Assembly (NCBI RefSeq): GCF_009663395.1 | Contig: NZ_QKNW01000001.1 | Span: 310,001 to 374,000 of the forward strand | DNA: 64,000 nt | Origin: Halosegnis longus | GTDB taxonomy: Archaea > Halobacteriota > Halobacteria > Halobacteriales > Haloarculaceae | Direction: 5' to 3' | Shown: piece after piece, positions 19,208 to 25,306 of the stretch | How positions within the stretch are numbered: the first letter of the stretch is position 1 | How the letters are laid out: every line of letters begins with the position of its first letter | The notes under the pieces: generated by a model | What the model saw: only the letters and a program-made list of their open reading frames with translations | Told to the model about the DNA's origin: nothing | Database searches by the model: none | Made by a program: the position numbers and the translations under genes

Positions 19208-19696
19208 GTGACCGACCACGAGTACGAACACGTCGTCGTCGACGCGCTGCCCGACGCCCCGAACCCCACCCGCCACAAGAAGGAACTCGACGAGGCTGTC
19301 GGCGCGAGCGAGTTCGGCTTCAACGTCATCGTCGCGGACCCCGGCGAACGAATCCCGTGGGGGTACCACCACCATCCCGACCACGAGGAACTGTTCTACG
19401 TGCTCGACGGGACCCTTCGTGTCGAGACAGCGGACGGAGACCACACCGTCGAGGCGGGCGAGGCGTTCTTCGTTCCCGCCGGCGCGCCACAGAAGGGTGT
19501 CGCCGGCGCGGACGGCTGTCGGCTCATCGCGGCGGGCGCACCGAAGGACAGCGACCGCGCCGTCATCGAGGAGGAGTGTCCGGCCTGCGGTGAGGTGACC
19601 AACCGCGACTACCGGGTAGAGGGCGACGGCTACGTTCTGGAGTGTGCGGGCTGTGGGGCGGACGTGGACGAACTACGCCCCGGCCCGGAGAGTTAG
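19208..19696 (+). CDS. Cupin domain protein with C-terminal zinc ribbon
   Basis: 162 residues from a GTG start (MTDHEYEHVVVDALPD). Residues about 30-110 form a cupin: metal-site motif YHHHPDHEELFYVLDG and second motif EAGEAFFVPAGAPQKG. Residues about 125-155 have two Cys pairs (CPACG and CAGCG), a zinc ribbon. This fusion may be a small-molecule sensor or enzyme; the substrate is unknown. It overlaps the next convergent gene by four bases. Confidence 0.85.
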   Translation: MTDHEYEHVVVDALPDAPNPTRHKKELDEAVGASEFGFNVIVADPGERIPWGYHHHPDHEELFYVLDGTLRVETADGDHTVEAGEAFFVPAGAPQKGVAGADGCRLIAAGAPKDSDRAVIEEECPACGEVTNRDYRVEGDGYVLECAGCGADVDELRPGPES

Positions 19697-19977
19697 AGTC
19701 GGTCGGTGTCGATGTCGCGGCCCGGCGGCGAGACGACGAGGAAGCCGCGAAAGTGCATCAGCTCGCCGCCGAGGTCCGTAATCTCGGTGGCGAAGCCGGC
19801 CGCAAGCTCGGAGAGGTCCCCCTCGATGTCGAGCACGAGGGTGTTGCCCGCCTCGACGAGCGCAATCCACTCGGCGTCGGGCGTCTCGCCGTCTAAGATG
19901 CCGAGCACCACGCTGTCCGTGTCGGGCACGTCCATGTCCCCTTCCGCCGACTGCAAGTCGAGTTCGAACTCGCTCAT
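19693..19977 (-). CDS. DUF5779-like haloarchaeal protein, 94 aa
   Basis: A soluble protein starting MSEFELDLQSAEGD, with conserved-looking VVLGILDGETPDAEWIALVE and LMHFRGFLVVSPPGRDIDTDRL segments. It resembles the haloarchaeal family I know as DUF5779; the name assignment is from memory and not checked. No enzyme motif is visible. It is divergent from leuA across a 235-base region that holds two dyads. Confidence 0.72.
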   Translation of the reverse strand: MSEFELDLQSAEGDMDVPDTDSVVLGILDGETPDAEWIALVEAGNTLVLDIEGDLSELAAGFATEITDLGGELMHFRGFLVVSPPGRDIDTDRL

Positions 19978-20075
19978 AGCTACCCGTGGACGCCCGGCGG
20001 GCAAAAATCCACGCGCCCGCCGGACGGTGGGTTGTGCGCGCCCCAGCCCGACCAATTTCTGAACGTTTGACCTGT

Positions 20076-20114
20076 GTATTCCGAATAGAATACCATCTAC
20101 ACAGAATTGTAGAT
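20076..20114. promoter_or_regulatory. Two adjacent dyads upstream of leuA
   Basis: GTATTC/GAATAC with 6-nt spacer (20076-20093) is followed one base later by ATCTACA/TGTAGAT with 6-nt spacer (20095-20114). Both are perfect and lie in the AT-rich part of the leuA / DUF5779 divergent region, about 65 bases before the leuA TATA box. They look like tandem operator sites for a dimeric regulator. As there is no T-run, terminators seem unlikely. Confidence 0.5.
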
Positions 20115-20177
20115 ATGAGTGTGCTAAAATCGGGCGAATGTCTCGCGCGAGCCGGCAACAACTGTGTCGACACAACG

Positions 20178-20186
20178 ATTAAATAC
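20178..20186 (+). promoter_or_regulatory. TATA box of leuA
   Basis: The A/T-rich ATTAAATAC lies 26-34 bases before the ATG at 20212. This spacing predicts transcription starting at about 20208-20212, a leaderless transcript whose first codon would be that ATG. That ATG is not in frame with the leuA enzyme (see the leuA entry). Confidence 0.6.
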
Positions 20187-20233
20187 CGTGACCCCTCTGA
20201 ATTGAGATACCATGACACAAGAGGTAACGTCGA

Positions 20234-21430
<1,197 letters not shown>

Positions 21431-21506
21431 GGGCGACACCCGCGACCGCGCCCGCCGGCGAGCACCGCGCCCGCCGTCGCGGTAACGTTTGCGCGAGTGT
21501 GTGCCG

Positions 21507-21515
21507 TTTTATTTA
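21507..21515 (+). promoter_or_regulatory. TATA box of the ilvB leader
   Basis: TTTTATTTA, the clearest A/T block in the leuA-ilvB gap. Its centre is about 28 bases before the ATG at 21539, so transcription should start at or just before that ATG. This places the 22-codon leader ORF at the very 5' end of the ilv mRNA. Confidence 0.65.
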
Positions 21516-21538
21516 CCCACGACGAGTGACGCGTACAG

Positions 21539-21607
21539 ATGGCCGACGCACACGCTCTGGTTCGTCCGACCGTGAGCGTCGCGCAGCTTCGTATTGTAGG
21601 GGTCTGA
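21539..21607 (+). CDS. Putative branched-chain leader peptide, 22 aa
   Basis: A leaderless mini-ORF with 8 of 22 residues Leu, Val or Ile: Leu7, Val8, Val12, Val14, Leu17, Ile19, Val20 and Val22. It ends LRIVGV-stop. Several of these codons (GTT, CTT, ATT, GTA) are rare in this GC-rich genome. Codons 18-22 are the 5' arm of the hairpin at 21591-21620 and the UGA is in its loop. By analogy with bacterial ilv/leu leader peptides, ribosome speed on these codons could decide whether the hairpin forms. This is inference; the ORF, promoter and hairpin are seen. Confidence 0.6.
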   Translation: MADAHALVRPTVSVAQLRIVGV

Positions 21608-21628
21608 GCCCCTACAGTACCTATTTTC
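21591..21628 (+). terminator. Attenuator-like hairpin with T-run before ilvB
   Basis: Arms GTATTGTAGGGG (21591-21602) and CCCCTACAGTAC (21609-21620) pair over 12 positions with a single G-U wobble; the loop is 6 nt and contains the leader's stop codon. CTATTTTCC follows. A second, weaker hairpin (arms ACGCTC and GAGCGT, 21552-21579) lies upstream inside the leader ORF. The layout resembles an intrinsic terminator/attenuator. Archaeal RNA polymerase relies mainly on T-runs, and this one is short, so effects on translation or stability are also possible. Confidence 0.65.
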
Positions 21629-21672
21629 CACCGACCGTTCGCACCGTTTTCGACCACCAGCCACCCCTACCG

Positions 21673-21705
21673 ATGGCACGACACCACCACACCACGAACC
21701 GATGA
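21673..21705 (+). other. Second mini-ORF overlapping the ilvB start
   Basis: Ten codons, [10 protein letters not shown], whose TGA overlaps the ilvB ATG (ATGA, 21702-21705). If translated it would couple ribosomes into ilvB by termination-reinitiation. Three consecutive His codons are unusual. It is too short to be sure that it is real. Confidence 0.3.
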
Positions 21706-23438
21706 GTAGCGAACAGACAACAGCCAGCGACGAAGCCGACGAGCCGACGCCGGTGACGACGGGCGCGGAGTCGGTCGTCCGCGCGCTGGAGAACGCCGGC
21801 GTCGAACACCTGTTCGGCGTGCAGGGCGGGGCAATCATGCCCATCTACGACGCGCTGTACGACTCCGAGATGACGCATCTCACGATGGCCCACGAGCAAG
21901 GGGCCGTCCACGCCGCCGACGCCTACGGCGCGGTCGACGGTGACCCGGGCATCTGTCTGGCCACCTCCGGGCCGGGCGCGACGAACCTCGTCACCGGCAT
22001 CGCCGACGCGGACATGGACTCCGACCCCGTGGTCGCGTTGACGGGCCAGGTGCCGACGGATTTCGTCGGTAGCGACGCCTTCCAGGAGACGGACACGACG
22101 GGCGTCACCCGCCCGATTACGAAGGAGAACTACTTCGCGGACGACCCCGACTCCGTCGGCGACACCGTCGGCGAGGCGTTCGCGATGGCAAACCGCGGCC
22201 GACAGGGACCGACGCTCGTCGACCTCCCGAAGGACGTCTCGAACGGCGAGACCGACCGCGAGCCGGGGCCACCGCGCACCCCACCGACGTACGTGCCGGC
22301 CGAGACGGCAGACGAACGCGCCGTCGGCCGCGCCGCCGACGCGCTCCAGCAGGCCGACCGCCCCGTCATCCTCGCGGGCGGGGGCGTCATCCGCGCGGAG
22401 GCGAGCGAGCAGCTGGGCGAGTTCGCCATCGAACACGAGATTCCGGTCGTCACGACAATGCCCGGTATCGGCGCGTTCCCGGAAGACCACGAGCTCTCCC
22501 TAGAGTGGGGCGGGATGCACGGCACCGGCTACGCCAACATGGCGCTGACGATGACCGACTGCATGTTCGCCGTCGGGACGCGCTTCGACGACCGCCTGAC
22601 CGGCGGCGTGGAGACGTTCGCGCCCGACGCCGAAATCATCCACGTCGACATCGACCCCGCAGAAATCTCGAAGAACGTCGAAGCCGACTTCGGGCTGGTC
22701 GGCGATGCCCGCGCGGTCATCAAGCAGTTCGCGGCCGCGATGGACCGCTCGCCGGACACCGCCGACTGGTGTGAGCGGTGTACCGACTGGAAGCAGGAGT
22801 ACCCCCTCGATTACCACATCGAGGAGGACGCGCCCGTCAAACCGCAGTTCGTCGTGGAGGCGGTCGACGCCGCGACAGACGACGACACCGTCGTCACGAC
22901 CGGCGTCGGCCAACACCAGATGTGGGCCTGCCAGTACTGGACCTTCACCCAGCCCCGGACGTGGATTTCGAGCCACGGACTGGGGACGATGGGCTACGGC
23001 GTGCCCGCGGCCATCGGCGCGCGCGTCGCGGCCGACGACGACCAGACCGTCGTCTGTTTCGACGGCGACGGCTCCTTCCTGATGACGTGTCAGGAGCTGA
23101 CCGTCGCGGCCCGCGAGCAGATGGACATCACCGTCTTCGTGTTGAACAACCAGTTCATCGGGATGGTGCGCCAGTGGCAGGACGGTTTCTTCGAGGGCCG
23201 CCGGATGGCCTCGGAGTACGACTGGATGCCGAAGTTCGACGCCGTCGCCGAGGCCTTCGGCGCGGAAGGGTTCACCATCGACGACTACGACGACGTGGAG
23301 GGCACCATCGAGGAAGCCCTCGACTACGAGGGACCGTCGGTCGTCGACGTTCGCATCGCCCCGGAGGAAGACGTGTTCCCGATGGTGCCAAGCGGCGGGG
23401 ACAACGGTCTCTTCGCCCTGCGAGGTGAGCACCTGTGA
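21702..23438 (+). CDS. ilvB: Acetolactate synthase, large catalytic subunit
   Basis: 578 residues. It joins two pyruvates (valine/leucine) or pyruvate and 2-oxobutyrate (isoleucine), using thiamine diphosphate and FAD. Visible features are the catalytic Glu in [14 protein letters not shown] near residue 67, the FAD-binding middle domain, and the ThDP motif [15 protein letters not shown]...[12 protein letters not shown] in the last third. An N-terminal acidic tail of about 20 residues precedes the domain. The stop overlaps the ilvN GTG by four bases. It is preceded by a leader region with a probable attenuator. Confidence 0.97.
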
Positions 23439-24070
23439 GCCGCGAGGAGAGCGAACCGCCCGAGTCGGGGCTGCTCGGTCCGGACCCGGAAAACCGGGAG
23501 CGACCCGTCGGGCGACGCAACAGTCAGGGAATCCGCATCGACCCCGAGACGGAGGCGACCCGCGAGCCGCGCCGGACGACCATCACCGCGCTCGTCGCGA
23601 ACGAGCCGGGCGTGCTGTCGAAGGTGACCGGGCTGTTCAGCCGCCGGCAGTACAACATCGAATCGCTGACCGTCGGAACCACACAGAACCCCGACTGGTC
23701 GCGCATCACGGTCGTGGTCGAGGAGCCGGACCCGAACATCGACCAGATCGAAAAGCAACTCGACAAGCTCGTCCCGGTCATCCACACGCGCGAACTCGAA
23801 CGCGAGGCCGTCGAGCGCGAGCTCGTCTTGGTGAAGATGGACGCCGACGAGCCGGACAAGGTCCACGCCATCACCGAGATGTACGAGGGGCGCACCCTCG
23901 ATGCCGGTCCCCGGACCATCACGGTCGAGTTGACCGGTCGCGAACAGAAAATCGACGACGCCCTCGACGCCTTCGAGCAGTTCGGCGTTCGCGAGATAGC
24001 CCGCACGGGACGAACGGCCCTCGCCCGTGGCGAGACGAAGACATCCATCGCACCGGAGCGACTCAAATAA
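23435..24070 (+). CDS. ilvN: Acetolactate synthase, small regulatory subunit
   Basis: 211 residues from a GTG start. An ACT domain lies at about 45-120 ([24 protein letters not shown]), followed by the second small-subunit domain ([23 protein letters not shown]). The family activates the large subunit and gives valine feedback inhibition through the ACT domain. The N-terminal 40 residues are charged and variable. Start and stop overlap both neighbours (GTGA with ilvB, TAATG with ilvC), so the three are translationally coupled. Confidence 0.95.
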
Positions 24071-25098
24071 TGACAGAGATATACTACGACGACGACGCTG
24101 ACGAATCGGTACTGAACGACACGACGGTAGCCATCCTCGGCTACGGCAGTCAGGGTCACGCCCACGCCCAGAACCTCGACGACTCGGGCGTCGACGTGGT
24201 CGTCGGACTGCGCAAGGGGTCCTCTTCGCGCAAGGCGGCGAAGGCCGACGGACTCGACGTGGCGACCCCGGTGGAGGCCGCCGGTCGCGCGGATATCGTG
24301 AATCTGCTCGTGCCGGACACGGTCCAGCCGGACGTGTACGACGCCATCGCCGACGAACTGGACGCCGGCGACACCCTCCAGTTCGCCCACGGGTTCAACA
24401 TCCACTACAACCAGATCACGCCGCGAGATGACGTGAACGTCCAGATGGTCGCCCCGAAGTCGCCCGGCCACCTCGTCCGGCGTAACTACGAGCACGACGA
24501 AGGAACGCCGGGGCTGCTCGCGGTGTATCAGGACGCGACCGGCGACGCCCACGAGACCGGGCTCGCGTACGCGAAGGCAATCGGCTGCACGCGCGCGGGC
24601 GTCATCGAGACGACGTTCCAGGAAGAGACCGAGACCGACCTGTTCGGCGAGCAGGCCGTCCTCTGTGGGGGCGTCACCTCGCTCGTCAAGCAGGGGTACG
24701 AGACGCTGGTCGAGGCGGGGTACTCGCGCGAGATGGCCTACTTCGAGTGTCTGAACGAGCTCAAGCTCATCGTGGACCTGATGTACGAAGGCGGCCACGC
24801 CGAGATGTGGGACTCCGTGTCCGACACCGCCGAGTTCGGCGGGCTGACCCGCGGTGACCGCATCGTCGACGAGCACGCCCGCGAGAACATGGAGGACGTG
24901 CTCGAAGAGGTCCAGAGCGGCGAGTTCGCCCGCGAGTGGATTTCGGAGAATCAGGCCGGACGCCCGAGCTACACCCAGCTTCGACAGGCGGAGAAGAACC
25001 ACGACATCGAGGACGTGGGCGAGGAGCTGCGCGCGCTGTTCGCGTGGGGCGGCGACGAGGAGGAACAGGAGACCGAACGGGTGTCCGCCGATGACTGA
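24070..25098 (+). CDS. ilvC: Ketol-acid reductoisomerase (class I)
   Basis: 342 residues, class I length. It isomerises and reduces acetolactate or acetohydroxybutyrate with NAD(P)H and Mg2+. A Rossmann domain ([19 protein letters not shown], near 20-40) is followed by [10 protein letters not shown] near 117 and the metal-site helices ([29 protein letters not shown]). The Arg/Ser-rich loop after the second strand ([11 protein letters not shown]) suggests NADPH preference. The highly acidic C-terminal tail is halophilic. An 8-base overlap links it to the small ORF at 25091. Confidence 0.97.
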
Positions 25099-25306
25099 GC
25101 TGGGCGACATCGAGCACACGAACCCCTACACCGGGGAGTCGTTCGGCGAGACACAGACGTACGGCCGCGGGCGGTTCGTCGCCGCCGACGGCGGCGAGCC
25201 GGCGAGTGACCGCGACGACGCGGAGGCGTCACTCGGTGATATCTCGCACACACCGCCGCGGAACGCCCCGAGCGCCAACGGCGTCTACGACAGCACAGAC
25301 CGATGA
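25091..25306 (+). CDS. Small protein between ilvC and leuC, 71 aa
   Basis: It starts [20 protein letters not shown] and overlaps the ilvC stop by eight bases. A motif occurs twice: [14 protein letters not shown] near the start and [14 protein letters not shown] near the end, separated by a Gly/Asp-rich linker. It is hydrophilic with no membrane segment. Its position inside the operon and the repeated motif suggest a role with the branched-chain enzymes, perhaps as a binding partner or stabilising peptide, but the function is unknown. Its stop lies in the 5' arm of a long hairpin. Confidence 0.75.

Follow-up and report, generated by a model that had tools for sequence, protein, structure and literature searches.

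A conserved leader ORF and hairpin upstream of ilvB in haloarchaea: a probable ribosome-operated, amino-acid-sensing control element

The DNA preceding ilvB in Halosegnis longus raises the question of whether an archaeal ilv-leu operon is controlled by the translation of a short leader ORF, as the original prediction for this locus had proposed. From the comparison of this site with its relatives, we consider it likely that it is a ribosome-operated, amino-acid-sensing control element. The window analyzed is a stretch of 64,000 nucleotides of the H. longus genome, to which all coordinates refer. TATA box, mini-ORF, hairpin and ilvB are all present in the predicted order and at the predicted places, and the locus is made up of the following parts:

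21427–21705, + strand: bridge ORF, 92 codons, in the −1 frame with respect to uORF1 and including uORF2
21507–21515, + strand: TATA box TTTTATTTA, 24–32 nt 5′ of the leader ATG
21539–21607, + strand: uORF1, the leader ORF, 22 codons encoding MADAHALVRPTVSVAQLRIVGV, with its TGA at 21605–21607; probably leaderless
21591–21620, + strand: hairpin (5′ arm 21591–21603, loop CTGA 21604–21607, 3′ arm 21608–21620)
21593–21598, + strand: predicted sensor codons 19–20, ATT GTA (Ile-Val), at the 5′ edge of the hairpin
21621–21672, + strand: C-rich spacer with T runs of 4 or fewer
21673–21705, + strand: uORF2, the TGA of which overlaps the ilvB ATG (ATGA)
21702–23438, + strand: ilvB, acetolactate synthase large subunit, 578 aa, first gene of ilvB-ilvN-ilvC-leuC-leuD-leuB

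Reading the sequence from the ATG at 21539 bears out a 22-codon ORF with eight Leu, Val or Ile codons (CTG, GTT, GTG, GTC, CTT, ATT, GTA and GTC). The end of this ORF constitutes the 5′ arm of the hairpin, and its stop codon sits within the loop. A hairpin of 12 bp had been proposed; the hairpin is there, its length being 13 bp with one G-U pair among them. CTATTTTCC lies directly 3′ of it, and 81 nt separate the hairpin from the ilvB ATG at 21702. The 163-nt leader folds with −51.4 kcal/mol (z = −3.2 with respect to dinucleotide shuffles). When positions 19500–24500 of the window were compared with the Rfam families, only two chance matches were obtained, the element being covered by none of the families.

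For the study of conservation, ilvB loci were gathered from named genomes (66) and from whole genomes (30). All haloarchaeal ilvB loci with upstream DNA (95 of 95) contain an ORF that terminates in a GTA-(G/C)GGG hairpin, so that mini-ORF and hairpin pass the conservation test set by the original prediction; these loci share ancestry, and neither this count nor those given below represent independent events. For further counts we used 65 non-redundant loci, no two of which are more than 85% alike. The usual leader ending is I-V-G-(A/V)-(x)-stop, as in Halobacterium salinarum (...VGLGIVGA, locus L062), Natrinema (...SIRIVGAL), Natronomonas (...TIIVGAA) and Halorarius (...AIIVGV). Two loci of a single genus end in I-R-V-R, and at loci L071 and L072, which were read manually, a divergent copy of the element is present. 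The leader starts 57–75 nt 5′ of the GTA in 63 of the 65 non-redundant loci. In most ilvB loci the stop codon is within or adjoining the hairpin loop; in one Natrialbaceae group the leader ORF extends four codons more, beyond the 3′ arm. Particular to the window are its long hairpin, the core being of 5–6 bp elsewhere (AGGGGC/GCCCCU), and the Leu-Val codons 7–8.

A covariance model built on 53 sequences matches 120 of 122 good Halobacteriales genomes (E up to 1). In a phylum-wide sample (E up to 0.1) it matches 34 of 40 Halobacteriales genomes and none of the 157 genomes outside this order, which identifies the element as a haloarchaeal feature. The pattern GGGGCN{2,6}TAGCCCC, run on 14 genomes, retrieves ilvB and some valS sites; as its total is below that of the reversed control, it is not a family-wide detector. 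No IlvB relative was found in viral contigs, and the matches listed for the plasmid collection are all bacterial.

The promoter can be recognized in the same alignment. Counted from the leader start, the A+T fraction is 0.83–0.94 at −32 to −29 and at −27, and 0.87 at −37/−36 (63 loci), the distance from TATA box to leader start being 27–32 nt across loci. Judged by sequence, this BRE/TATA placement is that expected for a leaderless leader transcript, and the TATA position suggests that transcription starts at the leader ATG or adjoining it. According to a Haloferax volcanii transcriptome study, leaderless transcripts are the usual kind in haloarchaea (PMC4983044).

Which codons, then, would a ribosome read as the signal? 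The codon preceding GTA specifies Ile in 64 of the 65 loci (ATT in 55, ATC in 8 and ATA in 1), and the hairpin core excludes this codon in most of them. As Ile is retained by means of three synonymous codons, it appears to be the amino acid that is conserved and not the nucleotides alone. Within the ilvB genes of the same loci, ATT accounts for 6% of the Ile codons and GTA for 0.4% of the Val codons. GTA is in part constant by design, since the elements were located by means of the string GTA(G/C)GGG, a procedure by which no locus was lost. Stalling at codons 7–8, which had been suggested as an event allowing the hairpin to form, finds no support: Pro-Gly takes the place of Leu-7/Val-8 in the nearest relative, Halosegnis rubeus, the IlvB of which is 97% identical to that of the window, and these codons are hence not the sensor. 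On the evidence of conservation, the putative sensor is the pair of codons 19–20, ATT GTA.

The stem forms in all 84 ilvB and valS elements, with a mean z of −3.7 with respect to mononucleotide shuffles. The GGGGC/GCCCC stem is retained at most ilvB loci, most cores being short (5–6 bp), and the arm variants GGGCC/GGCCC, GGCCC/GGGCC and GGCCCC/GGGGCC are all still paired. Covariation, which the original prediction had named as a check, is present: in a gapless alignment of 60 sequences, compensatory changes on both sides occur at four of the six pairs, a value reached by none of 500 shuffles; because the core is nearly invariant, this support comes from few independent events, and several of these belong to valS. 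A single hairpin is all that is seen, with no conserved alternative or antiterminator hairpin at ilvB or valS. The original prediction had also counted CTATTTTCC among the parts of an attenuator. This stretch is not a conserved terminator, a U-run terminator being absent: over the 60 nt 3′ of the hairpin, the longest T run is of 4 or fewer in 64 of 65 loci. Lacking both a poly-U tract and a conserved alternative structure, the element does not contain the classic terminator/antiterminator switch. Over 54 nt the spacer has on average 38% C and 19% G (65 loci), and a pyrimidine-rich motif containing T appears in it in 31 of the 65 loci versus 16 expected, none of 300 shuffles being as high. A stretch complementary to the 5′ arm, ACCCCTAC (~21663–21670, just 5′ of uORF2), was also considered; the other loci read contain no counterpart, and it was taken as chance.

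Secondary matches of the covariance model lie, in many genomes, upstream of valS. In 19 valS elements the GTA and the hairpin are kept with V-x-V or x-V-V, and Ile precedes GTA in none of the 19. The last codons are GTT TTC GTA (8), GTA CGT GTA (4), GTC GTA GTA (2) and others of similar kind. H. longus itself has a valS leader (locus L210) encoding MRSVRTTVFVGPA, with a GGCCC/GGGCC hairpin, and a second valS type exhibits leaders of 10–11 codons with tandem GTA GTA. Leaders M(A/V)(S/P)E....GFGFFF, or close variants, precede pheS in about 26 of 38 loci; in the H. longus genome no GFGFFF leader was found within 450 nt 5′ of pheS. One trpS type has leaders GWRWR, PWRWW and GWQWRW (WRW, WRWW and WQWRW) in three of three loci. 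The pheS and trpS leaders are unrelated in sequence to the ilvB element and follow the same logic. Haloferax volcanii dRNA-seq reported uORFs of 26 aa 5′ of pheS and of 23 aa 5′ of a trpS, with which our pheS and trpS leaders agree; in its available part, that uORF table includes neither ilvB nor valS, and the listing gives no cognate codons, hairpins or regulatory mechanism (PMC4983044). No cognate-codon leaders were seen at ileS, leuS, thrS, serS, proS, glyS, hisS or trpC.

Thus, the cognate codons differ with the gene: ilvB leaders have Ile-Val, valS leaders Val, pheS leaders Phe and trpS leaders Trp. That the downstream gene predicts the codon is the signature of ribosome-mediated amino acid sensing, and it would be poorly explained by a DNA operator or by chance. 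Conservation, codon identity, structure and the match of codon to gene can all be read from the sequences themselves. Leader-peptide control by codons and hairpin, the core of the original prediction, is accordingly supported by the conservation of the ilvB element and by its valS, pheS and trpS counterparts, whereas some of its details fail.

We infer that the ribosome stalls, and in which direction and at which step it exerts control, according to the following scheme. Transcription would begin at or beside the leader ATG, and a ribosome would load at once on the leaderless 22-codon ORF. With Ile-tRNA and Val-tRNA in ample supply, it would pass ATT GTA, stop in or beside the loop and leave, upon which the hairpin would form and operon expression would be lowered. 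Were either Ile-tRNA or Val-tRNA scarce, the ribosome would halt with ATT or GTA in the A site; its leading edge would then cover the 5′ arm, no hairpin would form and the operon would be on. Counting against this scheme, a ribosome at the stop codon itself would cover the hairpin until released. As to the step controlled, we lean slightly toward premature termination in the C-rich spacer, dependent on a factor (FttA/aCPSF1) and not intrinsic, over a block of translation. FttA prefers U-rich RNA located 30–36 nt behind the RNA end (PMC11616081). Taking into account this preference and the modest excess of pyrimidine-rich T motifs, factor-dependent termination at the spacer appears possible from the sequence.

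An additional feature, missed in the original prediction, is uORF2, which overlaps the ilvB start. Of the ATGs situated between hairpin and ilvB, 72 of 74 are in the uORF2 frame, the TGA of which overlaps the ilvB ATG, and 21 of 22 distinct hairpin–ilvB lengths are 2 mod 3. Ile, Leu and Val together make up 2.7% of uORF2 codons versus 13% and 9% when the other two frames are read, so that uORF2 would be translatable during starvation. In 60 of 64 loci no stop interrupts its frame between a point 5′ of the leader and ilvB, the hairpin included. This is the bridge ORF, which in the window begins with a GTG overlapping the leuA2 stop (GTGA) and ends at the ilvB ATGA. A bridge-frame start codon is found near the leuA2 stop in 53 of 65 loci, and the bridge ORF is absent in H. 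rubeus and in three other loci. While the zero-stop count over the full bridge frame is partly the result of construction, the hairpin-to-uORF2 interval, which is its unbiased part, contains no stops in this frame versus 18 and 19 in the other two (65 loci). The bridge ORF may serve to keep ribosomes on transcripts arriving from leuA2. The valS elements have no frame link and several of them are without any uORF2, which indicates that neither is needed for the leader–hairpin unit. That uORF1 might be fused to ilvB in the +1 frame was likewise considered and rejected, as stops occur in that frame in 18 of 65 loci.

The main rival retains the sensor described above and changes the step controlled: the hairpin would gate the access of ribosomes to uORF2 and ilvB instead of the end of transcription. 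A stalled leader ribosome, leaving the hairpin open, would permit initiation or reinitiation, and uORF2 would pass ribosomes on to ilvB via ATGA. The absence of a T-run terminator speaks for such translational attenuation, and so does a conserved uORF2 that overlaps the ilvB start and contains almost no Ile, Leu or Val codons. However, uORF2 lies 50–60 nt past the hairpin, no conserved pairing is seen that would hide its start, and several valS elements lack it. We consider this explanation a real contender, though clearly the less probable one. That ribosomes might instead, upon starvation, leave uORF1 for the bridge frame (−1) around ATT GTA by slippage and run on to the ilvB start is very improbable. 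The bridge frame is indeed free of stops across the hairpin in the 60 of 64 loci mentioned, 14 of 17 distinct lengths preserve the spacing modulo 3 and the neighboring leuA2 appears to need a frameshift; nevertheless, there is no slippery sequence capable of re-pairing in the −1 frame, the frame link is missing from four loci and valS does not keep it.

The two remaining explanations deprive uORF1 of a role. If the frame bridging the leuA2 stop and the ilvB start were a real gene, uORF1 would be an accident of GC-rich DNA, and the open frame, with start and stop placed at its two neighbors, would be accounted for. The ATT/ATC/ATA changes, however, are silent in uORF1 and not in the bridge frame, it is uORF1 that the promoter precedes, uORF1 and hairpin occur at valS without being linked in frame to uORF2, and four loci, the nearest relative included, have no bridge; we regard this as highly unlikely. 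We give equally little credit to a DNA operator, in which the palindrome TGTAGGGG..CCCCTACA would be bound by a transcription factor and the ORF would be incidental. A palindromic core that is near-invariant in most loci and lies ~50–80 nt downstream of the promoter would suit an operator, but Ile is retained through synonymous codons, the codon switches with the downstream gene, the arms vary in sequence while remaining paired, and the pheS and trpS leaders share the logic with unrelated sequences. A fixed palindrome independent of the reading frame is not what the loci contain.

Among known systems, those closest to the element include the bacterial leader-peptide transcription attenuators, such as those of E. 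coli ilvGMEDA, pheST and trp, the pheST leader being rich in Phe. The haloarchaeal element resembles the ilv/leu, pheST and trp attenuators in having, after the promoter, a short ORF with cognate codons by a hairpin, and in that the same kinds of genes lie downstream and codon identity tracks the gene. It differs from them in being archaeal, in its probably leaderless leader ORF, in its presence at valS as well, and in its single hairpin, the 5′ arm of which coincides with the ORF's last codons while the loop holds or adjoins the stop. From its sequence, the hairpin appears placed for a ribosome to decide on its formation, as in an attenuator; since a U-run terminator and a mutually exclusive antiterminator, both defining for that class, are not seen at ilvB, we do not file the element as a member of it. 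The trpS leaders, in which further inverted repeats are present, seem from their sequences to be closer to a classic two-hairpin attenuator than the ilvB element. T-box riboswitches also place aminoacyl-tRNA synthetase and amino acid biosynthesis genes under the control of amino acid supply, and they read tRNA directly without translation; unlike them, the haloarchaeal element has an ORF, and no T-box match was obtained with Rfam in the window (19500–24500). The Corynebacterium ilvBNC leader, or ilvB-II motif, also combines a conserved uORF with a structured leader 5′ of ilvB (PMC10272879, PMC11857589); it is bacterial and has several modelled hairpins, and no sequence relation to the haloarchaeal element was found (no Rfam match to the window).

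Our literature search, with subscription journals and preprints mostly outside its coverage, retrieved no report of leader-peptide attenuation in archaea, and according to the conclusion of the H. volcanii transcriptome study, haloarchaea do not typically have structured 5′ leaders (PMC4983044). We tentatively propose, with a confidence just short of even, a haloarchaeal leader-attenuator family (ilvB, valS, pheS and trpS) with a single hairpin gated by the ribosome on a leaderless mini-ORF and FttA/aCPSF1-dependent termination without a U-run. If true, haloarchaea would have a counterpart of bacterial attenuation and of T-boxes, and, as far as the literature found goes, no attenuation system that senses amino acids would have been described earlier in Archaea. 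A conserved element in which the codons match four kinds of genes would show coupled, ribosome-gated control of amino acid genes in Archaea, and it would provide a direct test bed for archaeal transcription–translation coupling and for FttA in tractable organisms, one of which, Halobacterium salinarum, has the element. For H. volcanii, auxotrophic transposon mutants of ilvB1 and ilvC exist (PMC4300041). Annotation of haloarchaeal genomes would gain a leader-gene family to mark.

Several minor observations were made at the related loci. Two genomes (G031 and G090) contain an extra copy of the element (...LIVGV; L134 and L139) 5′ of a small ORF, MTENRRTT...MADVDHTPPHEAPGANRVFERG..., and a small ORF resembling it is present in the window at ~25091–25306, after ilvC. 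Two ilvB loci from the secondary scan (L133 in G087 and L147 in G023), possibly ilvB paralogues, have the same leader and hairpin. In pheS leaders (e.g., L232, L311 and L316) the N-terminus MASEPHAG is also conserved, and many loci show CGG(T/C)GGAC after the leader. The Trp codons of the trpS leaders L246, L252 and L255 lie inside an inverted repeat, GTCCGCTC...GAGCGGACAGT; in L255 a second hairpin-like repeat and a pyrimidine-rich, CTTCTC-like sequence come afterwards.

A further observation concerns the 5′ end of leuA2 (window 20213–20260). In nearly all of 64 loci, no usable in-frame start is found near the conserved N-terminus. What is found in its place is an ATG in another frame, which has a TATA box 27–33 nt upstream and opens a short ORF of ~20–26 codons, which in the window encodes MTQEVTSTESAGRVLRGHSI. 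A slippage or a CTG start for leuA2 has been raised earlier, with speculation on leucine dependence (PMC8305020). In nearly all loci the short ORF is one frame off LeuA2 and the spacing shifts by steps of 3, which favors programmed frameshifting by +1; its site may be GTT CTT C, in which CTT is a Leu codon.
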